The position numbers and the translations under genes are program-made. Source: a virus. From it: DNA of 49,347 nt. Positions within the stretch are counted from its first letter, which is position 1, and the number at the start of each line of letters is the position of its first letter. This document shows positions 2,326 through 31,112 of this stretch, in pieces. A model generated the notes under the pieces. That model saw nothing but the letters and a program-made list of their open reading frames with translations. It was not told where the DNA came from and did not search any database. Location: positions 1 through 49,347 of IMG/VR virus record IMGVR_UViG_3300033981_001202. The stretch is one strand, 5' to 3'.

Positions 2326-5300
2326 ATGCCCTGTAGTATTGATCAACTTAAGCACATTGCAGACAGATTGTTAAAGCAAGGATATTCAGAGGAAGAGGTT
2401 ACTTCTGTTGTTACTTTGATTTCCAAAAGAGATCTTGATTCAGACCTAAGCAAGAAGATCGATTCATTGGTGACCAACCCAATTACGACAGAGGATCAGG
2501 ATTTCCTAAGAAAGTCAGTTGCAACCATGATTGCTAATGTTGATAAGGTTGTCACAGGTGGTAGTATACTAAGACTTGATGAACTCCTTAGCAGGGTATT
2601 GCCAGCCGAGGATGTAACTAGGGTAAAGGAACTCATTAAGAAGATCAGAATAGCAGATGGCAATGTAGACCTATTTAGCATCTCCTATATTGAAGATATC
2701 GATAACCTCATTGAAATGAATAGAAACCTAGGTAGAGAGTCAATCCTACCGATGCTTTTTGATCGGCGTGATAAAGCAGTTCAGAAGATGAACGAGTCTC
2801 GTCGCTATGAAGATACCAAAGAAGGAAACAAAAGACGGGAAAGAGATGAAGCCCTAAACAAGATCAATCAACTCAAGCACCTTTTAAACTATGTTGAATA
2901 TGTCATTAACATGACAACACCAAAAGGCACCAGTAACAAGGTAAAGAGATACCTAACTGCAAAGGAAAAGATAAAGTCGTTGCAGAAATCACTGAAGACA
3001 GAAAGATCCTTGGTAAAGAGATTCAAGGCTGGTGTCAAGGGTTTCAAGGAAACAAACCAGAGAATCAAGGAACTTGAGAAAGAACTAAGCGATGCCAAGC
3101 AGGAAGAACAAGTTGCCTTTGAGGACATTGTAAACGACAAGTTCCTTGAACTTTCCGATGGAAAGAAAACAATCAAGCTTAAGTCTGTTGCAAAAGCACA
3201 GGAACAGATCAAGAACGCAATTGAAAGGGAAGCAAAGAAGGTGGATGGGTTTGGTGTCGAGGAGATTTCCAAGCTTACAGCCGCTGCAACCAAGTCATTG
3301 GCTGAAAAACTTGTCCAGGAACGCATTGCTTCTAGAAACATCAAAGCAACCGTAGAAAGAATGAACAAACTTGTTGATTTCTACGAAGAAGAAAAGGAAA
3401 AAGCTGGCGAAACAAGGGATGCAATTGACCATATCTTCATGGGAACCATTGTCGGCAAGGCTGTAGTCGAGCGTTGGTTACGCAAAAACAGAACAAAGAA
3501 GGCGGAAGATGGTTCGATGGAAGTTGACCGTAGACCACTTAGCGTTCTTGCTGCAAAAGACATCATAAACGAATGGAAAGCCCTTGCTTGGTTTGGTGTT
3601 CAGGAAGGCACATTCTCCGACGATGTAGCCACAGCCGTGGATTCCGAACTTGCCTTGCTGGAAAGCATGGTTAATTCGTCTGGAGTGGCAAACCCACTAA
3701 GCATGGATGTTAACAACATGCGTGTAAAGCAGGATAGAACTGGTGCTGAAGCCGCCATGATGACCAATATTGGCGTAATCCCAGAAGAAAATAAAGCCCA
3801 GACAGCCAGACAGCTGTCCTCCTGGCTTGAGTACACCATTAGAGGTCTATACAGTCTAAGGGCAAGCCCCTTCTACAACGGCACCGTCACATCCAAGGCC
3901 ATCGATATGGTTTTACACCCCAAACTGTACGATTTAACCATCAATTCAGATAGTCTTGGTTTGGTCAGTGGCAAGAAAAGAAAAATGAACCAACCAAGTA
4001 AAGCCATGTACCTTGGTCGTATGAAGGAGTTGCTAAAGGATCTTGGAATTGAAGACCCAGAATCCCTACCAGAGTTCAAGCCAGATTTCAGTACTAACAG
4101 AAATGCCATTTCATATGACATCGAAACGGACCCAGTAGACAAGGGTACCAGCAACCCAACAAAGATCATCAGCATGCAGATCAGGGTTCAAGACATTGAT
4201 TCTGGTGCTGAGCCAGTAAGCTATGTATTTACCAATGCAGATGATTCCAAGCCACCCGTAAACAACCTTACGGTGGATGGACCAAAGAAACCACTGACCA
4301 AGCAGCAGATTGAATGGGTTCTTCGGTTCATGGAAGAGTATCAAAACAAAGGATTTAAGTTGGTTACCTTTGCTGGAAATAGCTTTGACCTCGGCAAGCT
4401 AAACAATCCAGCGTTTGTCGATGATGCAAAGCTGGTGACAAGAATCGCCCTACGCAGCTATGACTTACAAAGAAACCTTGGTTTCCACAACAAGGAAAGA
4501 AGAAAAGGTGGGAAATATTTTTCCTCCAAGCCTAAGAATGCTGGTCTCAAGTCAATAGCCAAGAACAACCTACCAGACTCCAGGACAGTAACCGAAGATG
4601 GTCGTTATGTCGTTACAAACGGAGCCGTATACGAACTCGGTGAAGGTGGAGTTGAGGTTGAGATTCTGGGAAAGGAAGCCGAGGAAAACTTCAACAAGGC
4701 AAACCTTGACAACGATTGGGCAAAGTTCAACCTATATGCCGACAACGATGTTATTACTACTTTGGACTTGTTCAACTACTTCATAACAAACGCCCAGACC
4801 AATGTATCCATTGTGGATGAAATTGACAGCGGTCTCAGTTATTCCATCATGATAAACAGACCACAGTCCAACATGATGCTTCCTCTTGACGACAATAACA
4901 CAAATTCAATTACTTTCAGTGAACTGATGTCCAGCTTTACGGATGTTGACAGCAGAATCAAGGAGTTTTCCCATGATGTCGAGTATGTCGAGGAAATGGA
5001 CATCAACCTTGATAAATTGATCTCGCTATTGGAAACTTGGTACATCCAGGCTTTGTCCATGGATCCAGAATCCAAGGATAAGTTAAACCAGCTACAGAAG
5101 GCATTGACCGACACCATTAACACCGAAACCATAGTCCAGCAGACTGGCAAGAAGGTAGCCGACAGAATGGCCAAGGCCGTTAAGGAGTCAGCAAAGGAAA
5201 ACTTCGCCAGGTTTGGGTATGTACTTGCCATAAATACCGATGAAAACGGAAACCCAAGACTAGACACAGAAGATGAACACTCCTTGTTCCTTCCAGCAGA

Positions 5301-8300
5301 TTCCGAGACAGTATACGTTGAAAACCTTGTCGAAGCATTTGTCGATGCACTGAAGACTTCCCGTTCCTTGGATTCCGTTGAAAAGGAAATGGTTGAGAAA
5401 TTCAACATACGATCAAGACAGCAACACGAAGAACCATCTGTATACTTCCAGAGATTCCTTACACAAGTGCTGAATACCTATTTCCCAATCAACGCTTTGT
5501 CTGATTTTGGCAATGGCAATGTTGACTGGCATCCAGCAAGGGATGTCGGGGTTGCATTGGCCCATGTCTTTACCAACAGAAAGGAAGGCATGTCCTTGGT
5601 TGATGTAAAGACAATGATGGGAACCCAGGGTTTTTCTGGACGACAATTTGCAGCTGAAGAAGCAACAAACAGGGGTGTACCCAGGTTCTTCCTGCTTGAC
5701 GGAACCAACTTTGCGTCTCCATGGGGAATCACCGAAGAAGCCTTGATCTATGACAACTTCAGGTTGCTAAGCAGAATGAAAGACATCATGGAAAGAGACC
5801 TTACCGAGGAGGAAATGAAAGACATTGAGAAATGGGCTACAACCAAGGAAGACAGCGATCCAGAGGTCGCCTTGTCCGTTTTCCGAAGAGGAGCCGTTCC
5901 TACAGTATTCCCAAAGGTAACAAGTAGAGCAGCCTATGATTTCCTACCAAGCCTTTCCGAACGAGAGTTGATGGGTCAGGAGTTCTTGTTTGATATCCCA
6001 AGACTGATGATGTTCATCAACCACGATGCCTTCTATACACCATTGGCTCAGAAAGGACGGTGGTTGCAAGACGGAAGCATTTACTATGCCGAGGACTTCT
6101 TTACGGCTGGTGCTCCGACCGCTAAGATGATCCTGTCTGGCGCAATTGACCATATTGCTTGGTTAGTCAGCTTTGACAAGCTAAATCCAAACAACAAAAA
6201 CCTGGATAAAGTCCTTCGCAAGGCGTTGTCCGATGGTATCGACGCGGTGATCGCAGACCCAACGGTCCAGGACTCCGCAAACAAAAACGACTACTCGTAC
6301 CACGGTGTTCACATCCAGCTTATGCTTTTGTTGTCTGCAAGCGGCGAGCAAGATGTGTTTGACAAATTCCTAGAGGAACTGACCAAAAAACTCGACACCG
6401 AGCAAGAAGCCGATGTCCGTAAGAACTTCGAGCAGTTCAAGAAGGAAAACGATCCAAGAAACAAACTGAATGACATGCTTATCGACTTGCTTGAACAAGC
6501 CAAAAACAACAGAGAGCAATTCAAAGGCTTGTTTAACTTAAGTGAAGACCAGACAAACGCATTCCTTGAGCTTTTGCCATTCTTGGAAGATCCAACACCA
6601 AAAAGAAAAGAATTCCTAAAAGGAATCATTACACCATCCATGTATTCAGCTGGTTATCAAGGAATTTTCAAGGGTATTCTTGCAAAGGCAGATTCCGCTG
6701 GTCTTACAAACATCACGGAAAGACATGCTTCCGTTGTTGCGAAAATCGTTACCAATAAGATAAAAGACGAAAATGCAAGATATGTTGATAAGGCAATCGG
6801 TATTTACGGCAAGACCAAGCAAGGCAAGGACAAGAAACAGGTCATCATTGATGTTCTTTGGGGAATGTCGGCTAGGATTGATGAGGCAAAAATCAAGGAA
6901 AATGCATTTAAGAACTTCAACAACGAGGTGGATGCCAAAAAGAGAATCGATTCCGCGGTGGCCTATCTCAAGACATTTATTCGGTTGATGGTAGATCAAT
7001 CCATGAGCAAGGCTGGCAAGAACGAAGATGATATCAAAAAGGAAAGAGAAGCAAAGATAAACGAACTCAGCGATAAGTACCAAGAAAGAATGAACAAGGC
7101 CGCTGCAATCATGGCAAAACACGACATGAGGGATCCAGATGTAAGGAATGACCCAAAAATCCAAGATGAGATCAACATTGCCTTGATGGGAGACAAGAGA
7201 TCCTACCACACCCACTTGATGCTGCACACCATCGCAAGACGGGCTGCCACTCCATTTAAGTTGCTTGCAGACAAGGAAACTATGGAAATGCATTCGGCCT
7301 ACGCTGGCCAGCATATCGATGAGGCGGATGTTACTCCATTCATGAGCAAGACTCTGTTCAATGCCATGGGCCTTGAGCTAGCCAGCGGCAGACACCATAT
7401 GTTTGGCAACTATGAGTGGGGACCTCAGGGATCCAAGGCCGCGCAGATACGGGTTCTCCACGGCAGCGATAAGAACGAACTTGGAATCTGGGACATTGAA
7501 GAGGTATACAAGAACACCGAACGAAATAAAGCCTATAGAGAAGCGTATGTCCGTCAGATCATGCTTGACCTCGCTCCAAACTACTACCCACCAGGATATG
7601 ATCCAGAGACAGAAAGCATGGAAAGCTTCTTTGATGCCATGAATAAAAGATCAAGGTTGGAAAGAGCAGCACAGGTAAGGGCGCAAAACACCCTTGACAT
7701 CAATAGAATCATTGACAGAAATGATCCAAATGCCAGAAAGATATCAGACACGGCGGAAAAACTAGAAGAAAACAACTTCAAGAGCAGACTTGGTTGGATC
7801 CGTGGCAACTACCAGAGAGACCGTTCAAAGCCAATTGTATTGGATCCAACCGTCAGCGGCCTTGCTGCGTTGCGTCCCCGTCATGCAAACATCGATTACA
7901 CCCAACGGGGCATGTATGCCTTGATCGGCATGATGAAAACCAGAGAAATCGAACAGACCGAAATGTTCAAGAGAAACAAGTTGGTCCAGGAAGCACCCAA
8001 GGATGGGGACCCAAACAACATCATTCCAAAGACAATGCGTGGTTTTGTGAAGACAACGGACAAAAGAAACATGCCGTATGTCCCCCACCAGTCAGGAAAC
8101 ATGATAACCTCCCTAACGATCAGTCCAAACAGAGAGGTTGAGATAGAGGCGGTAAGGCTTAGAAACACCCTTACAAACTTTGCCGTTGACAACGGTCTTG
8201 AGGACATGCTTAAAAAAGGCGAGTGGACAAGACTGTGGATGATCAAGGAATGGCGAAGACAGGGTCTGGAAGGTGCCATCTACAGCATGAAGAACCAGAA

Positions 8301-11300
8301 CAAGAGCGATCTATCTTCCATGATGCTTAGCCGCATCAAGATGTACGAAGCGATATTCAAGTTGATGGGAACAAACGCCAGAGCCTATAGCCCAGAAAAG
8401 ACATATAGCACCCTGGATCTTATGGCTAAACCAGAGGATGTCAGCTTTACCGCCGATGAGATCGATGAACTTCGCAAGAACTTCCCAGATGGCCTAAGAT
8501 ACCTTGATTTGCTCCGTCACATCTCTGGTAGGTTCGATAGGTTGACTGGTCTGGCAAACAACAGGCCATTGGTTGCGGTCCCAGGTATCATCGCAAGAGG
8601 CAATCCTGGGCTTATTGTAAACGAACCAGCATTGAGATCCTTGTCGGCATTCAGCATCGAAAACAACAACAACATCTCCATGATGTTGATCATGACCGAT
8701 GTATTCCAGGAAGAAGCGGAAAAGGAATACAAGGATGATCCGTCAATTCCAAGGGATTCGGCTGGCAACATCGCCCTTTCAATGATTCCAGCCGATAAGA
8801 ACAAGTCGATGAAGATCTTTGAACGGGTGCTTGCCCGAGCCAACGATGTGGCATCTGAATGGGGTACAAGAAAGGATATTGTGATGGTATTTTCTCCAGA
8901 ACAATTGGAAGAATATAACAACACCCAGAAGGAAGTTGCCAAGCAGGGAGAGAACCAACTTACATTGCAGATGCCTTTGACATCAAGTACCCATGTGTTC
9001 AACCAAGTTAGCAATCCAGATACCTTGTGGTATTTCACACCAGACATGGTAATCCAGTTCCTTAACTCCTTGAGAAACGACGACCCAATTACAAACTACG
9101 AACTTGGTTGGCAAACCAGAAAGACAGTTGGTTTTGTCCGTACCGATGCCGATATTTTGGTGATGGAAGAGCAAAACCAGTTGATGGACAACCTTGGCCG
9201 CAGCGTCGATCTGTCCCATCAAGCTCTGGTCCTGCTACATACCTTGGATCCATCGCCAGACAACAATACCCTGTTGTACCAGAACAACTACAGAAAACTA
9301 GATAACATGGGCAACCCTACGATGACATTGGATGCCACCGCATATCTCGGTAGTTCCTTTGAAATCAACCTGGAAATAGACGGAACAGAGCAGTCGATAG
9401 CCATAAGCTTGGAAACCGCCATGTTTGCAACGGACATTCTTTCTGCAATCACCAGGGCTAGAAAACTAGGGATGTACGAAGAAGCCAATAAGTTGTCCTT
9501 ATTCTTGTACAATGAGTTGACGGAACCAAGCGTTGACATTTCAAAAGATGCAACAAAGATCAACCCAACTAAGGACATCGTCATAAAAGCTGCCGTATTG
9601 AAGTCCCGTTTGGATGGGCTGAACAATGTACCAGTCTACCGAATCAGGGAAATCATAATGAGTACCCTACAGACCGAGATCAGCGCAGAAGATGCAAAGA
9701 ATGCTTTTGAGATGGCCCATGATGTGTCACGGCTTATCCAGAAGATTGCGGATACAAATCCAGACCAAAACCAGAAGATGAACTATGTTGCAAATGCCTT
9801 GCTCAGCAGAAGAGAGATGGCTGAGGAAGGCGTGGAAAACGACTCTTCATTGCAGGGCATGATCATACAGGCTGTCGGTGCTAAGGATACTCCGCAGGAA
9901 AGAAGCAAGGCAATGAGAGCCTTGTACATTGCCCAACAAGACCTAAGTACGGTACCAGAAGACAGGCCATTCGGGCATCTCCCATGGGATGCAAGAAAGG
10001 ATGTAGCCAGGTTTGCAGACCAAGACGAATTCATCAGGGCATTTGGCGATAGCGGTCGTGGTATCGTGGACCAGTTGAACGGCATGGTGTCAATGGGCTA
10101 CATGAGCAGACGGGTTGCGGACATGAAGATGATCCTCATAGGATCGTTGGCCATTGTCAACCCAGACATCCTAAGCGATCTTTCCCTTGATGCCTCCGAG
10201 TTTGACGGCCAGACATACGCTAGGATGGCAAAGCAAAACGGAAAGTACAGCATCGGTGTAAACATCAAGGCAATGGAAACAACACCAGAAAACGAAATGT
10301 TGTTGAAGTTTGCGGAAGAACTGGTCCACCTTGCAAGAGTAAAGTACATGGCCGATGGCTCCGAGGAGTACAAGAGAATCCAGGCTGTCTTCAGGTTGCC
10401 CAACTCAGAAGGCATGATCAGGGAAATGTTGTTAGCAATGCACAATGGAAAACCATACGCAGCCATCGAACAAGATGTTCAGTATGCAATGGACAATACG
10501 GATGAATTCCTGGCTCACTGGGGTGCTGTTGTCCTATTGTCGGAGACGGTATACAGCCCAGATACCTTGGTCAAGCTTGAAGCCAAGTATGCCCCAGTAG
10601 AGATGACAAGTAATTGGTTCAAGAGAGCGTTCTTCAAGATTAAGAACATCGCCATCCGTGCCTTGAACATGATGAGCCAGATGTCGTTGGATCGCAAGTA
10701 TTCAGACAGCTTTAATGAAATGTACGATGTCATGCAAGGATTGATCGGACAAGGATTGACCGATAGACGGGATGTAGGAAATCCAGACATGGCCTTTAAT
10801 GCGGTGTTTTCAATCAAGACCGACCAGGTTCAGGTGACCCCAGGAATGTACATGGACATGCGGGTTGCCGTGTTTGAGAAAAACAGGTTGAATGGAAGAA
10901 TACGGGCTGGCGATGCGACACCAGCCGACGAAACGCAGTTAAGAACCATAGAAGACACCCTTAATGATCCAAAAGCAAATCCACTTGGAATCATGGGAAT
11001 GACCCTTTCCCAGGTTGTCGAGGAAATGGAAAACATTAGTAGATCCGAAAGCGGAAACATTGTCAGGATCAAAAATGGAAGCTTGGCAAACAGAGCTATC
11101 CTCCAAAAAGCCATGACACATTACTTTGGACAGAGAGGCACCAGAGTAGACAACTCAGGAACCTTGGGTGGAACGATAAGAAACATGTTCAGGGGTGCGG
11201 ATGACTTCATTTCGTTACAGATCCAGAACAGACTGCTACAGTCATTCAACAACTCAAACCTGACATACAACTCACCAGAAGCAATACTTGTGTTTATTTC

Positions 11301-14300
11301 GGATGCAATTGACAACACAGCCGTAACCACCCAGTCTTCATACATGCCTTCCCAGACCCAAGGTGGTTTTGAGGCTCATAAGGAAGGACTGAAGTTATAT
11401 GTAAACGATATCATTCATACGGCGCTTGGGATCCAACACAAACACAAGGAACAGGCAAATATCGATGCCATCCACCGCAATGCTGGGTTGATTGCGGCTG
11501 GTCTTCCACTTGATGCCTCGTTTACCAACCCAGACATGATCGAAGATGCAAAAAGACTGGGTAATAAGATCAAGCTATTCAATAACCAACTAAGATCCAA
11601 ACTGGTCGAATCCAGAATCAAGGATACGGGAGACAACCTGGATGCAATCGGATTGAAGCTGGTAAAGTCAACGCAGCTGGAACAAGAGCAAAGAGACATG
11701 GGATACAATGCCGTTGTCAATGCAATGCGGGCAAAGTATCTGAACAACCTCGACAACGACAGACTTGATTCGATTGTCAATCCATTCATGATGTACATCG
11801 CTGGATTGCTGGTCAATCCATCTTCGGACAAAAACTCACTACAGAGTGCTGAGTTCAGGAATGAGATCATCAAGTTTACCAAAAACCCAAACAATGCTGC
11901 TATAAACGCAAAGGAAGCATCCATCAAGAATCTGGTAAACATGGCTATGGTAATCAGGTTGCAGAAGGAAAAGCAAATGTATCCAAGCAGAACCATAGGA
12001 GACATCCAAACCAAGGTAGCCAGGGATCCATTCTATCTCAACGAAGAGATAATAGAAGCCAGCAATAGATTCATCGTTGCCACAAGAGAAAACTCATCTA
12101 GATTCAACACGGCCTTCAACAACCTCACGAACACCGAGATACAGTTGATCCATGCTGCCGTCAGGGAAGTGGTAGCAACCAGAGAAGGAGATGAAAGTTC
12201 ATTGGTTGCAACCAGAATCAAGGAGATAAAGAGCAACAAGGAATCGTTCGGGTACTATCAGGGCAAGAGCAACTACTATCCGCGCAGAACGGATCTGTCA
12301 AACCCAATGTTCATCCTTGCCGACCAGTTCCTAGGCAAGCTTGGATCGACGGCCTATCTATTCTTAAATAGCGGACCAGACCTCACATACGCGGACATTT
12401 TCTTGAATCCAATAGGAATAGATCCAAGAGACCAGCAGTATCTACAGCGAATGTTTGACGATGACATTCCGACAATCCAGCAAAGCCTGATGAGAGGACA
12501 GGGATACGATGCAATCCAGAGAATCATCGTCCAAAAGATGACTGGCATAGAAGGTGCGTACTTCTCCATCTCACAGCTCATTGATATGTTTGAGACAGAG
12601 GTACAAGCACGGGGTCTGGCCCACAACAACATGCGTGTTCAGAACTTTGATAATAGAAGAGACGATCACAGGGAACAAACCTTGTTGAATGGATTGCAAA
12701 AACTGAGGGTTGCCAACAGCAAGGCAAAGGAAGTTCTTGGCGTTCGGGAAGAAAACCAACCACTAATCGATGCGATTAACAAGTACGGCCCGATTGCAAC
12801 GACCCTGGCCTACGGACCCAACGCAGCCTTGGCCACAACACTGGTGGAAGGAACCATGGGTGCCTTGGAAAGCGTCCTACAGGGAGCTGCTGGCGGAATG
12901 GCCACATCCCCGATCACATTCCTTTTTGAAGCATTCAAGATGAACATGGACTCAAGCCTGAGGACAGTCCAGAAGATCGTAGATAGACGGGACGGCAGAA
13001 CATCGTTCTTCAATGTAGATCCATACTTGCTAAGCAAGACGGCGGAAAACGCATTGTGGATGATGGAAGAAACCACATCACCGCAAATCCCAGGCCAGCT
13101 TACCGTCAATGCCCTGAGCGCCGATGAAAAGGCAAATATGAATACTTTTGACAGATTCATGGCATTCTCAAGAAGAGCATACTCGGATCCAATGAGATCT
13201 TTAAGAGTTGCAGCCGAGAATCAGGCAAACAGGGGCGTTGTGGAAAGACTGAGGGATGGATCCTTGGTCAGGTTGCGGGACAGCGTGAACCGAATCCTAA
13301 GGGACAATCCAAGTCCAAGCAACGAAGTACTAAGGGAAGTCCTGAGGGATGCAGGGGTGCGTATGGATGTCGAACTGATGCTCATCTACGTCAGGTCTGG
13401 TATATTCGTACCTGGCCGCATCGAAGCACTACAGTACACCATGTCTCAAGCACCAACCAAGACAAACAGGATCATGTACCAGGTCATGGCAGACATCGAA
13501 GCAGACCTTAGGCTAGGAACGACATACGATGGTGTTACGATCACCCCAAGCCTGATGCACGATGCAAGACTCAGCATGGCAACCCTGTCCAAAGCATATG
13601 CAAACCTAAGCATAGTCATGGACCATCCATTGGATGGCACCGCTGCATCCGATGGCCTAAGCGTTGTCCTTACATTCTACAAGTCGTATCCAACCTTGTT
13701 CATGGCTCAGCAGATCTACAGACGGGGAAGCGTAGCCCCAGCGTTCAGGCACGGCATCAGGTTGCTTACCCATGCAATGCTTGACATGATCTATAACATC
13801 CTGTTGGCCTTGGCAAGCGGCTGGTACAAGTGGGAAGAACTCATGGAACGGATAGAGAAGGGAAACATTAACTACACCGAGCTAGCCAAGTTGGTATTGA
13901 GATATCCCGTGTTCAGCATGAACAAGGTTGGATTAGTCAGTCAGTTGTTGGTAACCCTTGCAACAGACAAAATGAACAAGAACAGCATAATAAGCTCAGT
14001 CGGTGAACAAGCCATCATAAACACGTTTTTCAACATGGGTAAAGCCGTAGAGTCATACTATTACTGGGCTACTGGTCAGGTAAGCAAGGAACACCCAGGT
14101 GTTGCCACATACGCAGCACTCAGGGGATTCCTAAGTGCAGTCCCAGGAAACACACTGATCAGGATAATTCTTGAGCAATCCTTTGGTCAGTCTGGAACCA
14201 CAGGCACAGCCACCAGACTGCCAGCCGCACTCATGAGGCAAGTTGACATGGTTTCAGATGAAAGACCAATGAAGGAATTCGTCCGAACCCTGTTCCCAGA

Positions 14301-14466
14301 TGGCGTTAAGAACAAAAAACCAACGGTAAAGCCAATGAAGCTGACGGATATTCCGAAGATTCGTCCGCTATCTAGACAAACCCCAAAGACCAATACCCCA
14401 ACAACCAAATCCCCCAGTATCAAGGAACAGGCAACCACGCCATTAAAAGCTCCGTCTGGTTTTTAG
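2326..14466 (+). CDS. Giant virion protein with exonuclease, RNA polymerase-like and zincin-like regions
   Basis: 4046 residues, starting at ATG 2326 after a GAGGA ribosome site. Lys/Glu-rich coils lie at about 150-330. Residues 590-815 form a DEDDy 3'-5' exonuclease: D598-I-E600 (Exo I), D688 in NSFD (Exo II), Y804 and D808 (Exo III). Residues about 1240-1720 carry single-subunit RNA polymerase-like motifs: GR1245, motif A D1322 in DYSYHGVH, motif B K1432 with Y1440 eight residues on, and a possible imperfect motif C near H1712. The A-to-B spacing (110) is close to that of phage N4 virion RNA polymerase. Residues 2660-2730 look zincin-like (EELVH, then DEFLAHW) but lack the first metal His. 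Hydrophobic segments lie near 3500-3540 and 3812-3840, and the C-terminal tail is Pro/Thr/Lys-rich. Size and place suggest a protein injected with the DNA. The RNA polymerase assignment is inference; the exonuclease is clearer. Confidence 0.85.
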   Translation: MPCSIDQLKHIADRLLKQGYSEEEVTSVVTLISKRDLDSDLSKKIDSLVTNPITTEDQDFLRKSVATMIANVDKVVTGGSILRLDELLSRVLPAEDVTRVKELIKKIRIADGNVDLFSISYIEDIDNLIEMNRNLGRESILPMLFDRRDKAVQKMNESRRYEDTKEGNKRRERDEALNKINQLKHLLNYVEYVINMTTPKGTSNKVKRYLTAKEKIKSLQKSLKTERSLVKRFKAGVKGFKETNQRIKELEKELSDAKQEEQVAFEDIVNDKFLELSDGKKTIKLKSVAKAQEQIKNAIEREAKKVDGFGVEEISKLTAAATKSLAEKLVQERIASRNIKATVERMNKLVDFYEEEKEKAGETRDAIDHIFMGTIVGKAVVERWLRKNRTKKAEDGSMEVDRRPLSVLAAKDIINEWKALAWFGVQEGTFSDDVATAVDSELALLESMVNSSGVANPLSMDVNNMRVKQDRTGAEAAMMTNIGVIPEENKAQTARQLSSWLEYTIRGLYSLRASPFYNGTVTSKAIDMVLHPKLYDLTINSDSLGLVSGKKRKMNQPSKAMYLGRMKELLKDLGIEDPESLPEFKPDFSTNRNAISYDIETDPVDKGTSNPTKIISMQIRVQDIDSGAEPVSYVFTNADDSKPPVNNLTVDGPKKPLTKQQIEWVLRFMEEYQNKGFKLVTFAGNSFDLGKLNNPAFVDDAKLVTRIALRSYDLQRNLGFHNKERRKGGKYFSSKPKNAGLKSIAKNNLPDSRTVTEDGRYVVTNGAVYELGEGGVEVEILGKEAEENFNKANLDNDWAKFNLYADNDVITTLDLFNYFITNAQTNVSIVDEIDSGLSYSIMINRPQSNMMLPLDDNNTNSITFSELMSSFTDVDSRIKEFSHDVEYVEEMDINLDKLISLLETWYIQALSMDPESKDKLNQLQKALTDTINTETIVQQTGKKVADRMAKAVKESAKENFARFGYVLAINTDENGNPRLDTEDEHSLFLPADSETVYVENLVEAFVDALKTSRSLDSVEKEMVEKFNIRSRQQHEEPSVYFQRFLTQVLNTYFPINALSDFGNGNVDWHPARDVGVALAHVFTNRKEGMSLVDVKTMMGTQGFSGRQFAAEEATNRGVPRFFLLDGTNFASPWGITEEALIYDNFRLLSRMKDIMERDLTEEEMKDIEKWATTKEDSDPEVALSVFRRGAVPTVFPKVTSRAAYDFLPSLSERELMGQEFLFDIPRLMMFINHDAFYTPLAQKGRWLQDGSIYYAEDFFTAGAPTAKMILSGAIDHIAWLVSFDKLNPNNKNLDKVLRKALSDGIDAVIADPTVQDSANKNDYSYHGVHIQLMLLLSASGEQDVFDKFLEELTKKLDTEQEADVRKNFEQFKKENDPRNKLNDMLIDLLEQAKNNREQFKGLFNLSEDQTNAFLELLPFLEDPTPKRKEFLKGIITPSMYSAGYQGIFKGILAKADSAGLTNITERHASVVAKIVTNKIKDENARYVDKAIGIYGKTKQGKDKKQVIIDVLWGMSARIDEAKIKENAFKNFNNEVDAKKRIDSAVAYLKTFIRLMVDQSMSKAGKNEDDIKKEREAKINELSDKYQERMNKAAAIMAKHDMRDPDVRNDPKIQDEINIALMGDKRSYHTHLMLHTIARRAATPFKLLADKETMEMHSAYAGQHIDEADVTPFMSKTLFNAMGLELASGRHHMFGNYEWGPQGSKAAQIRVLHGSDKNELGIWDIEEVYKNTERNKAYREAYVRQIMLDLAPNYYPPGYDPETESMESFFDAMNKRSRLERAAQVRAQNTLDINRIIDRNDPNARKISDTAEKLEENNFKSRLGWIRGNYQRDRSKPIVLDPTVSGLAALRPRHANIDYTQRGMYALIGMMKTREIEQTEMFKRNKLVQEAPKDGDPNNIIPKTMRGFVKTTDKRNMPYVPHQSGNMITSLTISPNREVEIEAVRLRNTLTNFAVDNGLEDMLKKGEWTRLWMIKEWRRQGLEGAIYSMKNQNKSDLSSMMLSRIKMYEAIFKLMGTNARAYSPEKTYSTLDLMAKPEDVSFTADEIDELRKNFPDGLRYLDLLRHISGRFDRLTGLANNRPLVAVPGIIARGNPGLIVNEPALRSLSAFSIENNNNISMMLIMTDVFQEEAEKEYKDDPSIPRDSAGNIALSMIPADKNKSMKIFERVLARANDVASEWGTRKDIVMVFSPEQLEEYNNTQKEVAKQGENQLTLQMPLTSSTHVFNQVSNPDTLWYFTPDMVIQFLNSLRNDDPITNYELGWQTRKTVGFVRTDADILVMEEQNQLMDNLGRSVDLSHQALVLLHTLDPSPDNNTLLYQNNYRKLDNMGNPTMTLDATAYLGSSFEINLEIDGTEQSIAISLETAMFATDILSAITRARKLGMYEEANKLSLFLYNELTEPSVDISKDATKINPTKDIVIKAAVLKSRLDGLNNVPVYRIREIIMSTLQTEISAEDAKNAFEMAHDVSRLIQKIADTNPDQNQKMNYVANALLSRREMAEEGVENDSSLQGMIIQAVGAKDTPQERSKAMRALYIAQQDLSTVPEDRPFGHLPWDARKDVARFADQDEFIRAFGDSGRGIVDQLNGMVSMGYMSRRVADMKMILIGSLAIVNPDILSDLSLDASEFDGQTYARMAKQNGKYSIGVNIKAMETTPENEMLLKFAEELVHLARVKYMADGSEEYKRIQAVFRLPNSEGMIREMLLAMHNGKPYAAIEQDVQYAMDNTDEFLAHWGAVVLLSETVYSPDTLVKLEAKYAPVEMTSNWFKRAFFKIKNIAIRALNMMSQMSLDRKYSDSFNEMYDVMQGLIGQGLTDRRDVGNPDMAFNAVFSIKTDQVQVTPGMYMDMRVAVFEKNRLNGRIRAGDATPADETQLRTIEDTLNDPKANPLGIMGMTLSQVVEEMENISRSESGNIVRIKNGSLANRAILQKAMTHYFGQRGTRVDNSGTLGGTIRNMFRGADDFISLQIQNRLLQSFNNSNLTYNSPEAILVFISDAIDNTAVTTQSSYMPSQTQGGFEAHKEGLKLYVNDIIHTALGIQHKHKEQANIDAIHRNAGLIAAGLPLDASFTNPDMIEDAKRLGNKIKLFNNQLRSKLVESRIKDTGDNLDAIGLKLVKSTQLEQEQRDMGYNAVVNAMRAKYLNNLDNDRLDSIVNPFMMYIAGLLVNPSSDKNSLQSAEFRNEIIKFTKNPNNAAINAKEASIKNLVNMAMVIRLQKEKQMYPSRTIGDIQTKVARDPFYLNEEIIEASNRFIVATRENSSRFNTAFNNLTNTEIQLIHAAVREVVATREGDESSLVATRIKEIKSNKESFGYYQGKSNYYPRRTDLSNPMFILADQFLGKLGSTAYLFLNSGPDLTYADIFLNPIGIDPRDQQYLQRMFDDDIPTIQQSLMRGQGYDAIQRIIVQKMTGIEGAYFSISQLIDMFETEVQARGLAHNNMRVQNFDNRRDDHREQTLLNGLQKLRVANSKAKEVLGVREENQPLIDAINKYGPIATTLAYGPNAALATTLVEGTMGALESVLQGAAGGMATSPITFLFEAFKMNMDSSLRTVQKIVDRRDGRTSFFNVDPYLLSKTAENALWMMEETTSPQIPGQLTVNALSADEKANMNTFDRFMAFSRRAYSDPMRSLRVAAENQANRGVVERLRDGSLVRLRDSVNRILRDNPSPSNEVLREVLRDAGVRMDVELMLIYVRSGIFVPGRIEALQYTMSQAPTKTNRIMYQVMADIEADLRLGTTYDGVTITPSLMHDARLSMATLSKAYANLSIVMDHPLDGTAASDGLSVVLTFYKSYPTLFMAQQIYRRGSVAPAFRHGIRLLTHAMLDMIYNILLALASGWYKWEELMERIEKGNINYTELAKLVLRYPVFSMNKVGLVSQLLVTLATDKMNKNSIISSVGEQAIINTFFNMGKAVESYYYWATGQVSKEHPGVATYAALRGFLSAVPGNTLIRIILEQSFGQSGTTGTATRLPAALMRQVDMVSDERPMKEFVRTLFPDGVKNKKPTVKPMKLTDIPKIRPLSRQTPKTNTPTTKSPSIKEQATTPLKAPSGF

Positions 14467-15281: not shown

Positions 15282-15343
15282 AGCCTTACTGTCGCCCCCC
15301 TAGGAGAAATCCTAGGGGGGCTTTCAGTTGCGCTTTGCAACAA
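15281..15343 (+). repeat. Terminator plus leader-hairpin unit, copy 2
   Basis: AAGCCTTACTGTCGC is followed by a perfect 12-bp terminator stem (15294-15305 with 15310-15321, GAAA loop), then CTTTCAG and the hairpin GTTGCGCTTTGCAAC plus AA, the same order as at 15009-15075. The 23 bases after each terminator stem (15053-15075 and 15321-15343) are identical. Confidence 0.7.
15294..15324 (+). terminator. Intrinsic terminator with GAAA loop
   Basis: Perfect 12-bp stem GCCCCCCTAGGA/TCCTAGGGGGGC closed by a GAAA tetraloop and followed by TTT. It ends the transcript of the 53-residue gene. Confidence 0.8.
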
Positions 15344-15405
15344 CCCTGGCTTGTGGGGATCACAAGCAAACAAATCTTGGCAATGCCAAGAGAAAGGTAG
15401 ATTCC
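15344..15405 (+). promoter_or_regulatory. Two-hairpin leader of the module RNA polymerase gene
   Basis: Two perfect stems precede the ribosome site: 15349-15367 (GCTTGTG-GGGAT-CACAAGC) and 15376-15390 (CTTGGC-AAT-GCCAAG). The ribosome site AGAAAGG begins immediately after the second stem. Together with the GTTGC hairpin of the repeat unit this gives three stems in about 70 bases, which could protect the 5' end or tune translation. Confidence 0.6.
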
Positions 15406-17205
15406 ATGTCTATCATGGATCTGATGGGCGAAAGCCTCAAGGTGGTGTTCGGTGGTCGTTCGATGTCTTTCGCCACTGCGGCGATGAACGCGATGAAGAT
15501 CGCGTCAGCCGTGGAGACGGAGGCGAACGAGCAGACCAGCAAAACCTGGGAACGCAGCAAGATGATGCTGCAAGAGCTGATCAGAGCGGGTGTGCTTCAC
15601 ACCACCCAGATCAGCAACCCGACCACGGGATTGGCGCAGACCTACTGCGCCTTCACGGAAGGCTTCGCCCTGCGTGAGTTCCGTAGGGAGCCATCTATCA
15701 AGGAAGAGGATCTCCTCACCACCGCTCGGACGGCGGGTGTCCTCAGCTACCTCGGTAGCTGCGGTATTCGCATCAACCCCGAGGTTGTGGCGTTCATCCG
15801 CCGCAACAAGGATCGGTACGAGAAGACCGACTCCATGGGACGGAAGGTCACGCCTCCGTCCCTGTTCCTCAGGGACGCACAGTCCTTGGAGAACGAGGAG
15901 GATGATCGCCCGATCTTCATGGACTACAAGAGTCCTGACAACAGGCGGTTCTACGCTCTCCACAATCGGTTCACCCATCAGGGTGCCGAGTGGATGCGCG
16001 CCTCTGTCGATGCGGCTGAGGAGAAGCCGATCAAGCCAGAGGACATCGATGATGCGTTCATCATCGTGACCAAGGAGACGGGCGTGACCCGTACCAACTG
16101 GCGGGCCATCCTCAAGGACGAGTCCCTGTGCTTCACGGGCAAGCACCTGGGCCTCAAGACCAGCAAGCCCGCAGCGGTGTACCGTGCCGCAATCTTCTTC
16201 AGGGAGATCCTGGAGAAGGGACGTTCTGGGTACATCATCCAGCAGGACCAGACCTGTTCGGGGTTCCAGATCATCGCCATGCTGCTGGCGTGTCGGAACC
16301 TGATGACGCTGACTAACCTCAATGGTGGCGAGGAGCAGGACTTCTACACTGCTTCGTCGGATCTGGCCAGGGGCATGTATTCGGGTGAGTTCTTCCCCGA
16401 GTGCTTGTTCATCCGCAGCGGCGCGAAGTACTTCGTGCTTCGCATCGGCTACGGCGCGGCCACATCCTCGCTGGCACGGGGTCTCATCCTCGCCAACCCG
16501 CAGGAGAGTCCCGTCCAGTACCTCACCGAAGAGGGGGCGTTCATCCCTGGAGTCCTCGACAAGCTCCCGATCCAGGACTTCAACGAGGACTACTACGAGA
16601 TGTGGAAGGATCTCGGATGGAAGAGGGCGGTGGAAGTCTCACAGCAGACCTCCAAGGCGTACTACGGGGCCATCATGCAGATCAGCCCCAAGCTGCGTTG
16701 GTTCCTGTCCAGCATGAAGCTGGCGAACAGGATTGCCCTTGAGCGGGGCGAGTTCCTGTCGTGGGAGCCGATCCCAGGCGAGGTCAAGAAGAATGTCCGC
16801 TACACGGCGGACTGGAAGGCCAAGCCCCGCAAGGTGCAGTTCTTCGACAAGAACGGGAAGGAGTTCTATGTGAACATCCACCCGTTTGAGAAGGATGCGG
16901 CGGCAAGTGCGGCCCCGCCGTGCTATGTGCACTCCTTTGATGGTGCGACCATCATGCTGGTGGTGGAGATGTGCAAGGAACTCGGTATCCCCGTGTTCCC
17001 GATCCACGACTCCATCGGCACCACGGTGGACAACTTCAAGAAGGTGAAGGAGATGTGGCTCAATGCCACGCGGCACATCTTCTGCTACGGTCCCTCTCCC
17101 TTCTGGGATGTCGTCAAGAAGTACAACCTCCCAGTTCCCGCGTCACTGTTCCCCAACGGGCACCCAGAGCCCATCGATGTCTGGGGCGAGCATTTCATGG
17201 GTTGA
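15406..17205 (+). CDS. Divergent minimal single-subunit (T7-type) RNA polymerase
   Basis: 599 residues from ATG 15406 (AGAAAGG upstream). Motifs of the T7/mitochondrial polymerase family occur in order: MDYKSPDNRRFYAL at D173, matching the DxRGR region but with the glycine lost, followed by HQG; motif A D281 in QDQTCSGFQ (compare DGSCSGIQ); motif B K341 with Y349 in the canonical eight-residue spacing, ending GYG; VHSFDGA; motif C H534-D535-S-I-G-T. Both catalytic aspartates and the motif B Lys and Tyr are present, so the enzyme should be active. In T7 the DxRGR motif lies near residue 424; here it is near 173, so most of the N-terminal promoter-recognition domain is absent. Codon use is GC-rich compared with the 811-residue polymerase at 28677. 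The promoter and template are unknown. It is probably co-transcribed with the next gene, 22 bases downstream. Confidence 0.85.
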   Translation: MSIMDLMGESLKVVFGGRSMSFATAAMNAMKIASAVETEANEQTSKTWERSKMMLQELIRAGVLHTTQISNPTTGLAQTYCAFTEGFALREFRREPSIKEEDLLTTARTAGVLSYLGSCGIRINPEVVAFIRRNKDRYEKTDSMGRKVTPPSLFLRDAQSLENEEDDRPIFMDYKSPDNRRFYALHNRFTHQGAEWMRASVDAAEEKPIKPEDIDDAFIIVTKETGVTRTNWRAILKDESLCFTGKHLGLKTSKPAAVYRAAIFFREILEKGRSGYIIQQDQTCSGFQIIAMLLACRNLMTLTNLNGGEEQDFYTASSDLARGMYSGEFFPECLFIRSGAKYFVLRIGYGAATSSLARGLILANPQESPVQYLTEEGAFIPGVLDKLPIQDFNEDYYEMWKDLGWKRAVEVSQQTSKAYYGAIMQISPKLRWFLSSMKLANRIALERGEFLSWEPIPGEVKKNVRYTADWKAKPRKVQFFDKNGKEFYVNIHPFEKDAAASAAPPCYVHSFDGATIMLVVEMCKELGIPVFPIHDSIGTTVDNFKKVKEMWLNATRHIFCYGPSPFWDVVKKYNLPVPASLFPNGHPEPIDVWGEHFMG

Positions 17206-17734: not shown

Positions 17735-17756
17735 ATAACCCCTTCGGGGTTTCTTG
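17735..17756 (+). terminator. Terminator resembling the T7 Tphi start
   Basis: AACCCC-TTC-GGGGTT followed by TCTT, after the context AGCATAACCCCTT, which matches the first part of the T7 late terminator Tphi as I know it. It is the first member of the palindrome array that follows. Confidence 0.6.
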
Positions 17757-17940
17757 TGCCCCCTTCGGGGTACAATGCTATCCCTTCGGGACCTACGCCC
17801 TTACGGTAATGTCCCCTTCGGGGCCTTCGCTACCCCTTCGGGACCTTCGCTGCCCCTTCGGGAAGGTGGGTCACTATCATCAGTGGGTATGCCCCTAGGG
17901 GGCTTTAGACCCTTCGGGACCCCTACGGGTACCCTTCGGG
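17737..17940 (+). repeat. Array of TTCG-centred short palindromes
   Basis: About ten short palindromes of the form CCC-TTCG-GG, some variant, lie at 17739-17749, 17759-17770, 17782-17790, 17798-17808 (TTACGG variant), 17813-17823, 17833-17842, 17853-17862, 17910-17918, 17921-17929 (TAC variant) and 17932-17940. The first seven are spaced about 16-23 bases apart. In RNA each would form a very stable small hairpin, several with the C(UUCG)G loop. The sequences between them are not conserved. No coding sequence is credible here. Confidence 0.8.
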
Positions 17941-18234
17941 CGTTAGAACGCCGTATAGGCGATCCTAGGGGCATTAAAATGCATGTGGTAACCTCTTTGG
18001 GAACGTGTTTCCCTTTGGGGTTACCTGTTTTTCCCCTTGGAACTGCCATAACATGTCATGTGACTGCCATTTCATGCCATATTGGCACACCCACGCCCCG
18101 CGCACGCGAGATCCCAACACCAACGCGCCTTCGGCGTGCGGGCAACTCTAAGTTGCCCTTGTTGAGAAAATGTCGGGGTGATTGTTCACGGCGCGTATAC
18201 TGTGACAATGACCCCCATTGCGAAAGGACAGAGA
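17941..18234 (+). promoter_or_regulatory. Non-coding spacer with further hairpins and leader of the 86-residue gene
   Basis: Further stems follow the array: 18126-18137 (GCGCC-TTCG-GCGT type) and a perfect 8-bp stem at 18140-18158 (GGGCAACT-CTA-AGTTGCCC). Near the next gene are a small dyad GTGATTGTTCAC at 18178-18189, which may be an operator, and a TATACT at 18196-18201. I find no -35 element at the usual distance, so a host promoter is not established. No gene is seen in the roughly 520 bases between 17716 and 18235. Confidence 0.5.
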
Positions 18235-18495
18235 ATGGCAGACATCAATGAGGCAGCCGCAAAGTTGGCGGCATTCGGAGTAACCGTGACCACCCAGCCC
18301 GTAAAGCGGGAGACACGGGTGGTCGATCCGCTCAACCGAGCTATCGGTCTCTTGGCTGCGGCCAAGAACCCCAACCTGAGCGAGGAGAGCCGAGCAGCCG
18401 CCATGGCCCGCCTTGGTGCCCTGCTCGACAGCCAGCCTGAGCTGGCATCCAGCGTGTCAGCTGTAGCTGAAAAGCAAGCCAACAGCGGTCGCTAA
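18235..18495 (+). CDS. Small hypothetical protein, last gene of GC-rich module
   Basis: 86 residues from ATG 18235, with CGAAAGGACAGAGA upstream, the ribosome-site style of the module. The protein is Ala/Arg/Glu-rich and mostly helical by composition (DINEAAAKLAAFGV near the N-terminus; SEESRAAAMARLGALLDS in the middle). The middle part is reminiscent of short helical capsid-associated or scaffold-like phage proteins, but I recognise no family. It is GC-rich like the other module genes, and the structured RNA region begins directly after its stop. Confidence 0.65.
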   Translation: MADINEAAAKLAAFGVTVTTQPVKRETRVVDPLNRAIGLLAAAKNPNLSEESRAAAMARLGALLDSQPELASSVSAVAEKQANSGR

Positions 18496-18519
18496 ACTCC
18501 ACTAGGGGAGTATAAAGTA

Positions 18520-19420
18520 GTTAAGCCTAGTGCGTCCCCGTGGCAACACGGGGGGTCCCGACTGCTACAACCGTGGCAACCGTAGACTTGAAACACCTAC
18601 GGCAACTATTGCCAGTTTCAACGGTCAAGGGCTAACTTATATGGAATACCTAAACCCACATTCCATACATGGCAGGGTAAATAGGGTTACATGGGGCCTC
18701 CTAGCGGAAACGCTAGGTGGTCTTTTCCTTCCCAGCTACTGTTGCTTAGGGCTGGGGTCGGAAGGATTAACAAGCAACTGCAAACACAGGAATGAGCCCA
18801 ACTGTGTTAAGATTTGGAGGCTCCCATGCTTCTTAGTGGGAAACCATTAAGAAGTATTTCTCCTCGTAAGAGGAAGGCCCATAAAAAATTGGCAATTCTG
18901 GGCACCGCAAGCAACCTAGCCCATAGGCGGTATATAAATAGTGGGACACCCTTTTGTTGTGGGTTTGGGAATGATCACCCCAAGCCAACCGAGCCTGAAT
19001 ATGCTCTGGTCATCAAAACTATTTTGGACTTAGGGTAAGTGGATGTCCCTAGGCGTACTTTGATACGCGCAACCATAAAACCTTGGGAATACCAATGCAT
19101 GGGTCTGCTGATAACCCCGTAAGTTTTCCAAAAGGTGAGAAGAACCTCACAACGCCATGTCAGATCAGGAATCTTGGCACGAACTTAACGCAGCCATCCA
19201 TATCCATAGGGTATGGTAGATGGGGTTGTATAGGACTCTACAGGAATTTCCTTGTAGATACGCCGCCTAATTAGCGGTACACTCTAGTTCTGCACTAGAG
19301 GGTGATACTCTCCTGAGTGCAGCAGGAGCGGATATGGTTGCTGGCAAGCCATGTCTGTATAAAAGCCACCGTGTTACTCCGAGCGGGCAATTCGGAGTTC
19401 CTTATAAGATGTACTTTAGT
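18520..19420 (+). ncRNA. Large ornate structured RNA candidate (GOLLD/ROOL-like)
   Basis: No credible gene occurs for about 950 bases, yet paired stems run almost continuously. Seen directly: 18536-18553 (7 bp, GCAA loop), 18641-18666 (7 bp), 18700-18717 (7 bp, GAAA loop), 18783-18808 (7 bp), 18829-18854 (11 bp, GAAA loop), 18861-18874 (5 bp, GTAA loop), 19282-19300 (7 bp), 19309-19327 (6 bp), 19376-19398 (7 bp), plus multi-branch elements near 18570-18625 and 19195-19220. A loop-loop pairing is possible between GTTGCTT (about 18741) and AAGCAAC (about 18772). Four GNRA loops in one transcript suggest tertiary docking. Known phage-borne giant RNAs (GOLLD, ROOL) have similar size and lie near tRNAs. 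Exact ends and class are not determined. Confidence 0.6.
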
Positions 19421-19454
19421 GTACAGAGTGCGCCTTTACAGGAGACAAACAATG
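19409..19454 (+). promoter_or_regulatory. Duplicated leader, copy 1
   Basis: ATGTACTTTAGTGTAC forms a small dyad (GTAC-TTTAGT-GTAC), followed by AGAG, TGCGCC, TTTACAGGAGACA and the start codon. A close copy precedes the next gene at 19703-19747. The shared core GTGTAyAGAG and the fixed distance to the ribosome site suggest a phage promoter or an RNA-processing hairpin. Confidence 0.5.
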
Positions 19455-19691
19455 CACCTTTATGATTATGTTTTCAACGATAGGGATGCTACATTTTGGC
19501 ACAAGTCCTATAAGGATTGCCTCAAGAACTTGGAAAGCGCAGAGACTTTGAACGACACTCTTCGCAAGAAGATCTCTGAACTTGAGTATAAGTTGATCAA
19601 GTATGAGGCAAACCAACTGTACAATACCCTGTGTATGCAAGGCAAGTACGATGACGCAAGGGTTGTTCATGAATTGATCACCCGCATCTAA
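19452..19691 (+). CDS. Small coiled-coil hypothetical protein
   Basis: 79 residues from ATG 19452, preceded by CAGGAGACAAAC. The N-terminus is aromatic (YDYVFNDRDATFWHKSYKD); residues about 25-55 form a heptad-like coil (LESAETLNDTLRKKISELEYKL), followed by a short helical segment. No family recognised. It is the first gene after the structured RNA and carries the first copy of the duplicated leader. Confidence 0.65.
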   Translation: MHLYDYVFNDRDATFWHKSYKDCLKNLESAETLNDTLRKKISELEYKLIKYEANQLYNTLCMQGKYDDARVVHELITRI

Positions 19692-28634: not shown

Positions 28635-28676
28635 ATGTAGCTATGCTACAACCACCAACATTTGATGGAGACAAAC
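28635..28676 (+). promoter_or_regulatory. Leader of T7-like RNA polymerase gene
   Basis: A small hairpin GTAGC-TAT-GCTAC lies at 28637-28649, followed by an unstructured stretch and the ribosome site GGAGACAAAC, identical in style to that of the gene at 19452. Confidence 0.45.
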
Positions 28677-31112
28677 ATGCTAGAAATGTGGAAACAATTG
28701 TCTAAGGAACAGCAGAACACCAGGTATTCTGTTCAAAAGACCAACGAAGAAGAGTTGCTAACAAACAGTATTGACAAGTATTGGAGAGAATACAATAGAG
28801 CACCTGATGAAGGAAAGCCAGAACAACTATTGCTAGAGAGTGCAGTAGATCACCTTACTCCTTTCTACCAAGAATGGATTGACAAGGTATGTTCTGCCCG
28901 TAAGTCGCCTGATTGGTTGGCTCCTCTGTTGCTTATTGGTCCCAGCAAGATGGCAGACATAACCATCAGGAATGTCCTCAAGGCTTTTCTTTCTAGGACA
29001 ACCTTGCAGAATTTTGATGACTCTGTTGGCATTCCTGAAAACGCACCCGTAGGTCAGCAAGTTGCCAAGGCTATTGCAGAGGATGTAATCAACATCATTG
29101 CCTACCAAAGTGCAAAGAAATCTTTCAAGGATGACTGGAAGCGTCAATCCAAGTTCATCAAGTCGTGGACTCCCAAGCGTTGTCTTGGGTTTACCAAGAA
29201 GATGACTGGAATTCCCAAGTACAAATCAAAGGACAAGGAAGACTTTGGTCACAACATGCTTAGGATTGCCCTTGCCAGTGACATCCTCATAAAGAGAATT
29301 CACTGGAATGGTAGAAACAAGAAGACCATGTTGGTTTCCTTTGCTCCTTGGATTCTAAAGGAACTTTCCCATAGGCATGAGATGCTGGAAGCAGCTTGCA
29401 TGGTCTACCGACCCATGATCTGTCCTCCTGTGGAAAACACAAAGAATGAGAATGGTGGTTTCCTGTCGCCCTGGATCAGAAAGAAAATGATCAAGCGGTA
29501 CCATCCAGTGGGTGCAAACCCAAAGGATTGGGACTCCAAGCCATCCGAACTAGTTCTTCGTGGTCTCAATGCACTTGGCAACACCGAGTGGTCTGTGAAT
29601 GAAAAGGTCTACTCTGTAATGAAGACCATGTTTGAAAACGACTACAGAATTGCCAATGTCCCAGCAAGTTCCTTCAGGGATTTTTCCTTTAACATTCCCT
29701 ATCCAGAACATGGGACCAAGGAACAAAAAGCAATCTGGATGAGAGAATCTAATGAAGCATGGGGAGAGTGGTACAAGGAAGAGCAATCCCGTAGTCGCAT
29801 GATTGTCCGTCTTGAGCTGTGCAAAAAGATGATTAGCTGGGGATTCTTTTACATGCCATACACCCTTGACTTTAGGGGACGAGCTTATTCCGTTTGCGAG
29901 TTGCTGTCTCCCCAGGGTGTTGACTTTGATCGCGGCCTTGTTCAGTTTGCCATGCCAAGAAAGCAAACAACCTCTGGTTTGTGGTGGATGATGGTTCACC
30001 TTGCAAACCTGTTTGATCAGGACAAAAAACCATATACTGAACGGGTCAAGTGGATAGACGACAACTGGGAAATGATCACCAGAATTGCCGAAGACCCCTT
30101 GTCTAACCGAGAGTGGGTGGATCTGTCCAAGAAAAAGAACAAGTCTTTCCAAAGACTTGCAGCTATCTTTGACATCACTCGCACAGACGGCATGACCCAG
30201 GTTCCTGTCCAGATGGATGGAGCCAATAATGGCGGACAGCATTGGGCTGCTATCCTTAGAAACAGAAAACTAGCTGAGCTTACAAACCTGTTGAGTGCAG
30301 AAGAACCCAAGGATTTGTACAAGTATGTAGCAGATGCTTCCACAGAACACATGAAAAACCATACCGATAACGAATGGTTTTCTACTTTCTTGACGCACTG
30401 GCCTGATGGCTTGCCTCGTTCGGTGACCAAGCGGCCTACTATGTGCGATGCATATGGCCTGACATTTTATGGAATGCAGAAGTATGTAAACCAGGAAGGA
30501 CATGTGGATTGGGTTCCCAAAGATCAGCGCAATGGTGCGGTCGTACAGCTAAGCCGCGCCATTCAGGCTGGTCTTGGTGAAACAATGGCTTCGCCAAACA
30601 CGGGCAAAGAGTGGCTAAGAACAGTGGCAAGTGTTGTTAATGATATGAACAAACCATTGGTGTGGACAACACCAAGTGGGTTTGAGGTTCATCATGTATA
30701 CAACCAAGTAGTAGAGCGAGTAAGTTATGCCGAGTTGTTCAACAAACAACAATTGGTTTTCTCCACTATTACCGAGGATCTAGATGGGACGGCGCAGTAC
30801 CTTGCTATTTCGCCTAACTTCATCCATGCCTTGGATGCTGCTCACATGTTTATGACAATCGGCAAGATGCTAAACAAGGGGATGACTGGGTATTCCTTTG
30901 TACATGACTCTTATGGAACATATGCTCCAGATATCGACACAATGCATACGATCCTAAGAGAAGAGTTTGTTGAAATTCACAAAGAGAATCAACTTGAAAA
31001 GTTTAAAAAAGAAACAGAAGAAAGATACGGTATCTTCCTCCCTGAGTGTCCAGCCAGGGAAGACGGGTTCAAGATCGAAGAAGTCCTTAACAGCAGATTC
31101 TTCTTCGCTTAA
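28677..31112 (+). CDS. T7-like single-subunit DNA-directed RNA polymerase
   Basis: 811 residues from ATG 28677, chosen because GGAGACAAAC precedes it; a TTG at 28662 would put the ribosome site inside the gene. All family motifs are present: D398-FRGR, motif A D514 in MDGANNGGQH, motif B K585 in VTKRP with Y593, motif C H743-D744-S-Y-G-T. The C-terminus RFFFA corresponds to the FAFA foot of T7 polymerase. Length is near the usual 880, and unlike the polymerase at 15406 the N-terminal part is present. Expected role: transcription of middle and late phage genes from phage promoters. Confidence 0.97.
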   Translation: MLEMWKQLSKEQQNTRYSVQKTNEEELLTNSIDKYWREYNRAPDEGKPEQLLLESAVDHLTPFYQEWIDKVCSARKSPDWLAPLLLIGPSKMADITIRNVLKAFLSRTTLQNFDDSVGIPENAPVGQQVAKAIAEDVINIIAYQSAKKSFKDDWKRQSKFIKSWTPKRCLGFTKKMTGIPKYKSKDKEDFGHNMLRIALASDILIKRIHWNGRNKKTMLVSFAPWILKELSHRHEMLEAACMVYRPMICPPVENTKNENGGFLSPWIRKKMIKRYHPVGANPKDWDSKPSELVLRGLNALGNTEWSVNEKVYSVMKTMFENDYRIANVPASSFRDFSFNIPYPEHGTKEQKAIWMRESNEAWGEWYKEEQSRSRMIVRLELCKKMISWGFFYMPYTLDFRGRAYSVCELLSPQGVDFDRGLVQFAMPRKQTTSGLWWMMVHLANLFDQDKKPYTERVKWIDDNWEMITRIAEDPLSNREWVDLSKKKNKSFQRLAAIFDITRTDGMTQVPVQMDGANNGGQHWAAILRNRKLAELTNLLSAEEPKDLYKYVADASTEHMKNHTDNEWFSTFLTHWPDGLPRSVTKRPTMCDAYGLTFYGMQKYVNQEGHVDWVPKDQRNGAVVQLSRAIQAGLGETMASPNTGKEWLRTVASVVNDMNKPLVWTTPSGFEVHHVYNQVVERVSYAELFNKQQLVFSTITEDLDGTAQYLAISPNFIHALDAAHMFMTIGKMLNKGMTGYSFVHDSYGTYAPDIDTMHTILREEFVEIHKENQLEKFKKETEERYGIFLPECPAREDGFKIEEVLNSRFFFA

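Follow-up and report, generated by a model that had tools for sequence, protein, structure and literature searches.

Long phage transcripts can be cut between cistrons, as at the RNase III sites of phage T7, and tandem pseudoknot domains are found at the 3' ends of plant viruses. No report of tandem pseudoknot arrays in phages was found in the open-access literature. The pistol ribozyme cleaves between the two bases which join P3 to P2, and the length of this P2-P3 junction is strictly constant at 2 nt (PMC4604425). Why phages carry pistols is not settled in the accessible literature. The array of RNA elements described here is headed by a pistol, which is followed by a chain of pseudoknots; both were overlooked in an earlier note on this DNA.

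The window (the whole stretch of 49,347 nt that was analysed) is a complete IMG/VR record of a T7-like podovirus, whose other genes include primase/helicase, DNA polymerase A, exonuclease, ribonucleotide reductase and a head-tail adaptor. This one phage has two single-subunit RNA polymerase genes (Table 1), and a 4046-aa ORF (2326-14466) might encode a virion polymerase-like or an internal virion protein. The array occupies 956 nt (18496-19451) and is flanked by two small genes; its RNA starts directly past the stop codon 18493-18495 and has its 3' limit at about 19451. It stands at the start of a series of small genes that lie upstream of the gene for the T7-like RNA polymerase. No sigma-70 promoters above chance were noticed. 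The spacer upstream of the array is crowded with CUUCGG-type hairpins (17740-18060).

Several measures show how strongly this stretch is structured. Its minimum folding energy is -339.5 kcal/mol, compared with -296.0 +/- 8.7 kcal/mol in shuffled sequences (z = -5.0). Perfect stems of at least five pairs capped by GNRA loops (G-U allowed) number exactly four, the figure given in the earlier note, against an average of 0.28 (at most 2) over 200 dinucleotide shuffles. The perfect stems reported there are equally real, with 30 positions of perfect 6-bp Watson-Crick stems versus 7.6 +/- 3.5 in shuffles. A de novo search returned 8 H-type pseudoknots compared with 1.0 +/- 1.0 in dinucleotide shuffles, none of 200 shuffles reaching as high; these are candidates rather than proven pseudoknots because some overlap simple hairpins (18700, 18822). 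The peak of such pseudoknots in the whole window falls in this stretch, and the enrichment recurs in most relatives. An unspecified loop-loop kissing pair had been suggested as well; what was found instead are H-type pseudoknots, in which a loop pairs with a downstream single strand.

Nearly 1 kb without genes had been claimed, and this holds: computed ORFs in the stretch (heuristic calls, for example 18530-18850) carry in-frame stops in five relatives (L004, L005, L030, L060 and L073). A coding region was rejected on these broken frames, and the conserved reading frame named beforehand as the sign against a structured RNA is absent. That the structure arose by chance in a decaying gene or spacer is barely credible: long computed ORFs do exist, but they are broken in relatives, and both the compensatory changes described below and the z of -5 speak against it.

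The Rfam search of the stretch gave a single family, pistol RF02679, at 18496-18557, with 38.9 bits over a gathering cut-off of 34.5. This is the lowest score of the set, the others ranging from 40 to 66 bits. The AUAAAUA linker is two nucleotides short, the P2 of the model is not formed, and the alternative GUAG/CUAC helix needs 8 extra nucleotides, its 3' strand apparently lying that far beyond the expected junction. The alternative pair is CUGG/CCAG in L073, a compensatory change. By our reading the predicted cut would fall at G18555^U18556; as the P2 helix is atypical, cleavage of the window copy is presumed from family membership. Pistols were present in 16 of the 21 records searched, the unrelated Cellulosimicrobium phage DS1 included, with exactly one per genome, and in the related genomes the single copy always lies inside the array.

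Table 1. Features of the array and its surroundings (window coordinates unless a relative is named)
Feature	Position	Strand	Details
Second RNA-polymerase-like gene	15328-17205		shorter, divergent
86-aa ORF, upstream	18235-18495	+	stop codon 18493-18495 abuts ribozyme
Pistol self-cleaving ribozyme	18496-18568	+	match to Rfam RF02679
Pistol P1	18496-18499/18508-18511		ACUC/GAGU, 4 bp
Pistol loop pseudoknot	18500-18506/18526-18532		CACUAGG/CCUAGUG, 7 bp
Pistol P2, probable	18517-18520/18565-18568		GUAG/CUAC, unusual spacing
Pistol P3	18535-18542/18547-18554		8 bp, GCAA loop
GCAA-capped stem	18543		8 bp
PKA, H-type pseudoknot	18580-18619	+	S1 CCGUAG/CUACGG, S2 GAAAC/GUUUC
PKB, H-type pseudoknot	18640-18688	+	S1 UAUGGAAU/AUUCCAUA, S2 AACCC/GGGUU
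GAAA-capped hairpin with UUUU, terminator-like	18693-18726	+	terminator-like site 18700-18717
GAAA-capped stem	18707		7 bp
PKC pseudoknot	18726-18778	+	outer UCCUUCC/GGAAGGA, S1 CCCAGC/GCUGGG, S2 GUUGCUU/AAGCAAC
PKD pseudoknot	18784-18823	+	S1 ACACAG/CUGUGU, S2 GAGCC/GGCUC
GNRA hairpin, GAAA	18826-18857	+	
GAAA-capped stem	18840		14 bp
GNRA hairpin, GUAA	18861-18874	+	
GTAA-capped stem	18866		5 bp
Stem leading into PKY	within 18826-18903	+	GGCCCA...UGGGC
PKY, compact pseudoknot	18904-18948	+	S1 ACCG/CGGU, S2 CCCAU/GUGGG, then ACA
PKX-type pseudoknot, degenerate	18988-19025	+	S1 GAGC/GCUC, L1 C
PKV pseudoknot	19290-19327	+	S1 CUGCAC/GUGCAG, S2 UCCUG/CAGGA; detected de novo
Conserved 3' end	19366-19451	+	hairpin ACUCCGA/UCGGAGU, second hairpin, ribosome-binding site of next gene
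79-aa ORF, downstream	19452-19691	+	
816-aa single-subunit RNA polymerase gene	28662-31112		
Type II hammerheads of L025	2037-2102 and 2516-2584 (L025)		flank 128-aa ORF

Relatives were collected with the 816-aa RNA polymerase, which led to 35 viral loci, and a further set was added later, seven of them more distant; searches with the other RNA polymerase-like protein (gene at 15328) or the 86-aa protein found no close relatives. The array comparison covers about 15 related viral contigs, many of them closely related. Covariation among homologues had been set as a test beforehand, and it is strong: in relatives holding the region the helices change their sequence and stay paired. For PKA, 95.5% of the cells are paired and the covariation is 0.604 versus 0.170 after shuffling (0/500). 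The pairing of its S1 is complete (100%), both bases being altered in five of the pairs, and S1 occurs in five different sequences, each with 6/6 pairs. PKY is the most conserved element of the array, with conserved CAAGCAACC and AUAAAUA; 92.8% is paired, compared with 31-46% in slid controls, and the covariation is 0.337 versus 0.135 (0/500). The PKY model (R1) recovers a full copy at 15 further loci, and the copy in L004 is broken.

PKB, PKC, PKD and PKV were assessed by explicit segments, in the case of PKB because the MAFFT alignment across all relatives was misregistered. The S1 of PKB has a different sequence and is nevertheless paired in L073 and L014, it forms 6/6 pairs in L015 if CUAGGC/GCCUAG is used, and its S2 reads AGGUCU/AGACCU in L014. 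PKC and PKD are supported by two sequences each, PKC having other bases with the pairing kept in L010, where the S1 of PKD is UCCCG/CGGGA. The S2 of PKV is CUCCG/CGGAG in L010 and CCCG/CGGG in L030. Since the segments had been read by eye before testing, the homologue-free de novo pseudoknot searches serve as an independent check. The GUAA hairpin and the GGCCCA stem are also present in L073, and the 3' end of the array is nearly identical in five relatives despite differing downstream genes. Outside this phage group, matches to PKA have no pistol next to them and resemble chance matches, of which several lie in coding sequence; in bacterial genomes PKY gave 23 pattern matches without helices, a number about that expected by chance.

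The 5' unit has the order pistol, PKA, PKB and hairpin, closed by the GAAA hairpin, which recurs in relatives with an altered stem. It is possible, if unlikely, that this unit yields a trans-acting phage small RNA of ~170 nt (about 18556-18725), with a 5' end made by the ribozyme and a 3' end made by the terminator, which would bind a host or phage target. The terminator-like site, the strong covariation of PKA with its conserved unpaired GAAACA, and the fact that the unit stays together while its position relative to PKY switches (the pistol, upstream in the window, is downstream of PKY in L014, L015, L016 and L048) are in keeping with such a product. No target is known, however, the downstream part is replaced in L018, L019 and L020, and the remaining array is equally structured.

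The modules are loosely assembled. PKC and PKD are missing from L073 and L005, a deletion runs through PKY in L004, which makes PKY dispensable, and ORFs lie between the modules in L010 and L015. PKY is kept in L024 and L027 and followed there by a tRNA cluster. Fragments resembling tRNA, with T arm and acceptor-like ends, were noticed in the arrays of L014 (4465-4575), L010 (about 3510-3610) and L037 (6545-6590), and ARAGORN called no tRNA in those of L010 and L014. Modules which are independently lost, reordered and split by ORFs are unlike a single fixed giant fold. Of the suggestion that the stretch belongs to the known giant RNAs or to a new class, one part survives: a large structured RNA, possibly of a new class, is supported by the covariation and the broken frames. 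Membership is not supported, as the Rfam models of GOLLD, ROOL and OLE gave no match at the gathering score, nor any weaker one up to E = 5. The contiguous conserved architecture by which we read that class is likewise not seen in the array. A GOLLD- or ROOL-like ornate RNA folding as one body into RNA-only multimers would suit the size, GNRA loops, pseudoknots, phage origin and nearby tRNAs of L024 and L027; in view of the missing Rfam match and the independent fate of the modules it is quite improbable, nothing in the analysis pointed to multimers, and such a cage is the least likely of the structured readings.

PKX is a small pseudoknot with the consensus RAC-C-UGAGCA-U-GUY-nnUAAAC-UGCUCA, of which the relatives have up to four copies per array. 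No stretch of the window matches the consensus pattern; the only copy there is the degenerate one of Table 1, its S2 UGAAUA forming 5/6 pairs and its L3 ending in AAAAC. At least 75 other viral contigs (L226-L305 and others) also carry PKX, with at least 120 stretches matched. The third pair of S1, left free in the search pattern, is complementary in 124/124 distinct copies among the matches listed (47% expected). A relaxed search, in which S2 varies and the pairing is kept, gave 147 distinct matches compared with 3 in shuffled sequence. Among the matches listed, a stop codon lies no more than 60 nt upstream of 51 of 75 sites, compared with 16% for random sites. A general association of pistols with PKX (3 of 105 pistols, 0.9 expected) was too weak to claim. 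Covariation supports both PKY and PKX, neither of which matches an Rfam family, the array is a kind of phage noncoding RNA absent from Rfam, and PKX merits a separate study.

It is rather unlikely that the modules are separate cis-regulatory elements, akin to riboswitch or attenuator leaders, which were joined once intervening gene cassettes had been lost. In favour of this, ORFs separate some of the modules in L010 and L015, PKX in other viral contigs mostly follows closely on a stop codon and precedes another gene, and the array is conserved without its flanking genes (neither the 86-aa nor the 79-aa ORF has homologues in the relatives tested). On the other hand, no module has a consistent downstream gene and covariation persists where no ORF follows. 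This explanation and the trans-acting ~170-nt RNA are the main rivals.

The anatomy of the array, that is the ribozyme match, the pseudoknots, their covariation, the modularity and the noncoding nature, is well supported. Its RNA probably processes and protects phage messages. The fuller reading, in which the array is an intergenic element for RNA processing and end protection whose pistol cuts and whose pseudoknots shield the products, is given about an even chance. We infer the following order of events: the pistol would cut its own transcript immediately past the upstream gene's stop codon; of the two products, the upstream message would end with the folded ribozyme and carry a 3' cyclic phosphate, and the RNA downstream of the cut would begin with a 5'-OH. 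The pseudoknots, the GNRA hairpins and one or more terminator-like hairpins may then each obstruct host nucleases as a compact unit of its own, and stable transcript ends would result from these knotted obstacles. Protection from nucleases is hypothesised here from structure and anatomy. A broader version is doubtful and put forward tentatively: a kit-like phage RNA composed of a self-cleaving ribozyme and interchangeable H-type pseudoknots, in which PKY and PKX would be new classes blocking nucleases like the xrRNAs of RNA viruses, and PKX would be an intercistronic element across many unrelated phages.

Self-cleavage seems to be a conserved property, as L025, a relative without a pistol, has a gene flanked by two type II hammerheads in the corresponding region of its genome (Table 1). 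The pistol heads a conserved, re-arrangeable pseudoknot chain, occurs once per genome and is apparently replaceable by hammerheads, which makes a role in RNA processing directly testable. Phage DS1 is cultured and has one PKX within about 350 nt of its only pistol, and it is therefore experimentally accessible. In another phage contig (L148, 3471-9390) six pistols separate consecutive genes or sit at their ends, most ending 15-20 nt upstream of the next start codon; judged by these positions, the contig supports pistols as putative gene-boundary cutters. Near the pistols of other phages H-type candidates number 1.2 versus 0.67 per 500 nt, hence pseudoknots are not their general companions. Two further pistols are followed by 700-900 nt without an obvious ORF, one in L181 (11433 onward) and one on the reverse strand of L208 (5642-5695), the latter with a tRNA within.

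Compared with known systems, the window copy shares with pistol RF02679 the P1, the loop pseudoknot, P3, the UUAAG and GCGU stretches, the phage intergenic location and a score over the gathering cut-off; it differs from a typical pistol in its linker, two nucleotides shorter, in the apparent 8-nt displacement of the P2 3' strand and in the long pseudoknot chain of this phage group that follows. Like the 3' ends of plant viruses the array has consecutive H-type pseudoknots as end structures, an anatomical likeness, whereas it is intergenic, ribozyme-headed and belongs to a DNA phage. As do the T7 RNase III sites, it would cut long phage transcripts between cistrons; in general terms the ribozyme and pseudoknots might stand in for such sites, with the difference that the array would cleave itself and need no host enzyme. 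With the theta (HDV-like) ribozymes which process phage tRNAs (PMC10879173) it has in common a phage self-cleaving ribozyme and a role, here predicted, in transcript processing, but it uses a pistol, usually has no tRNA directly attached and carries the pseudoknot chain downstream. From GOLLD and ROOL (PMC12286853) the array is set apart by the absence of a sequence-structure match, by its modular, re-orderable build and by the self-cleaving ribozyme at its head; like them it is large, noncoding and phage-encoded, with GNRA loops and several pseudoknots, and in some relatives tRNAs lie close by.
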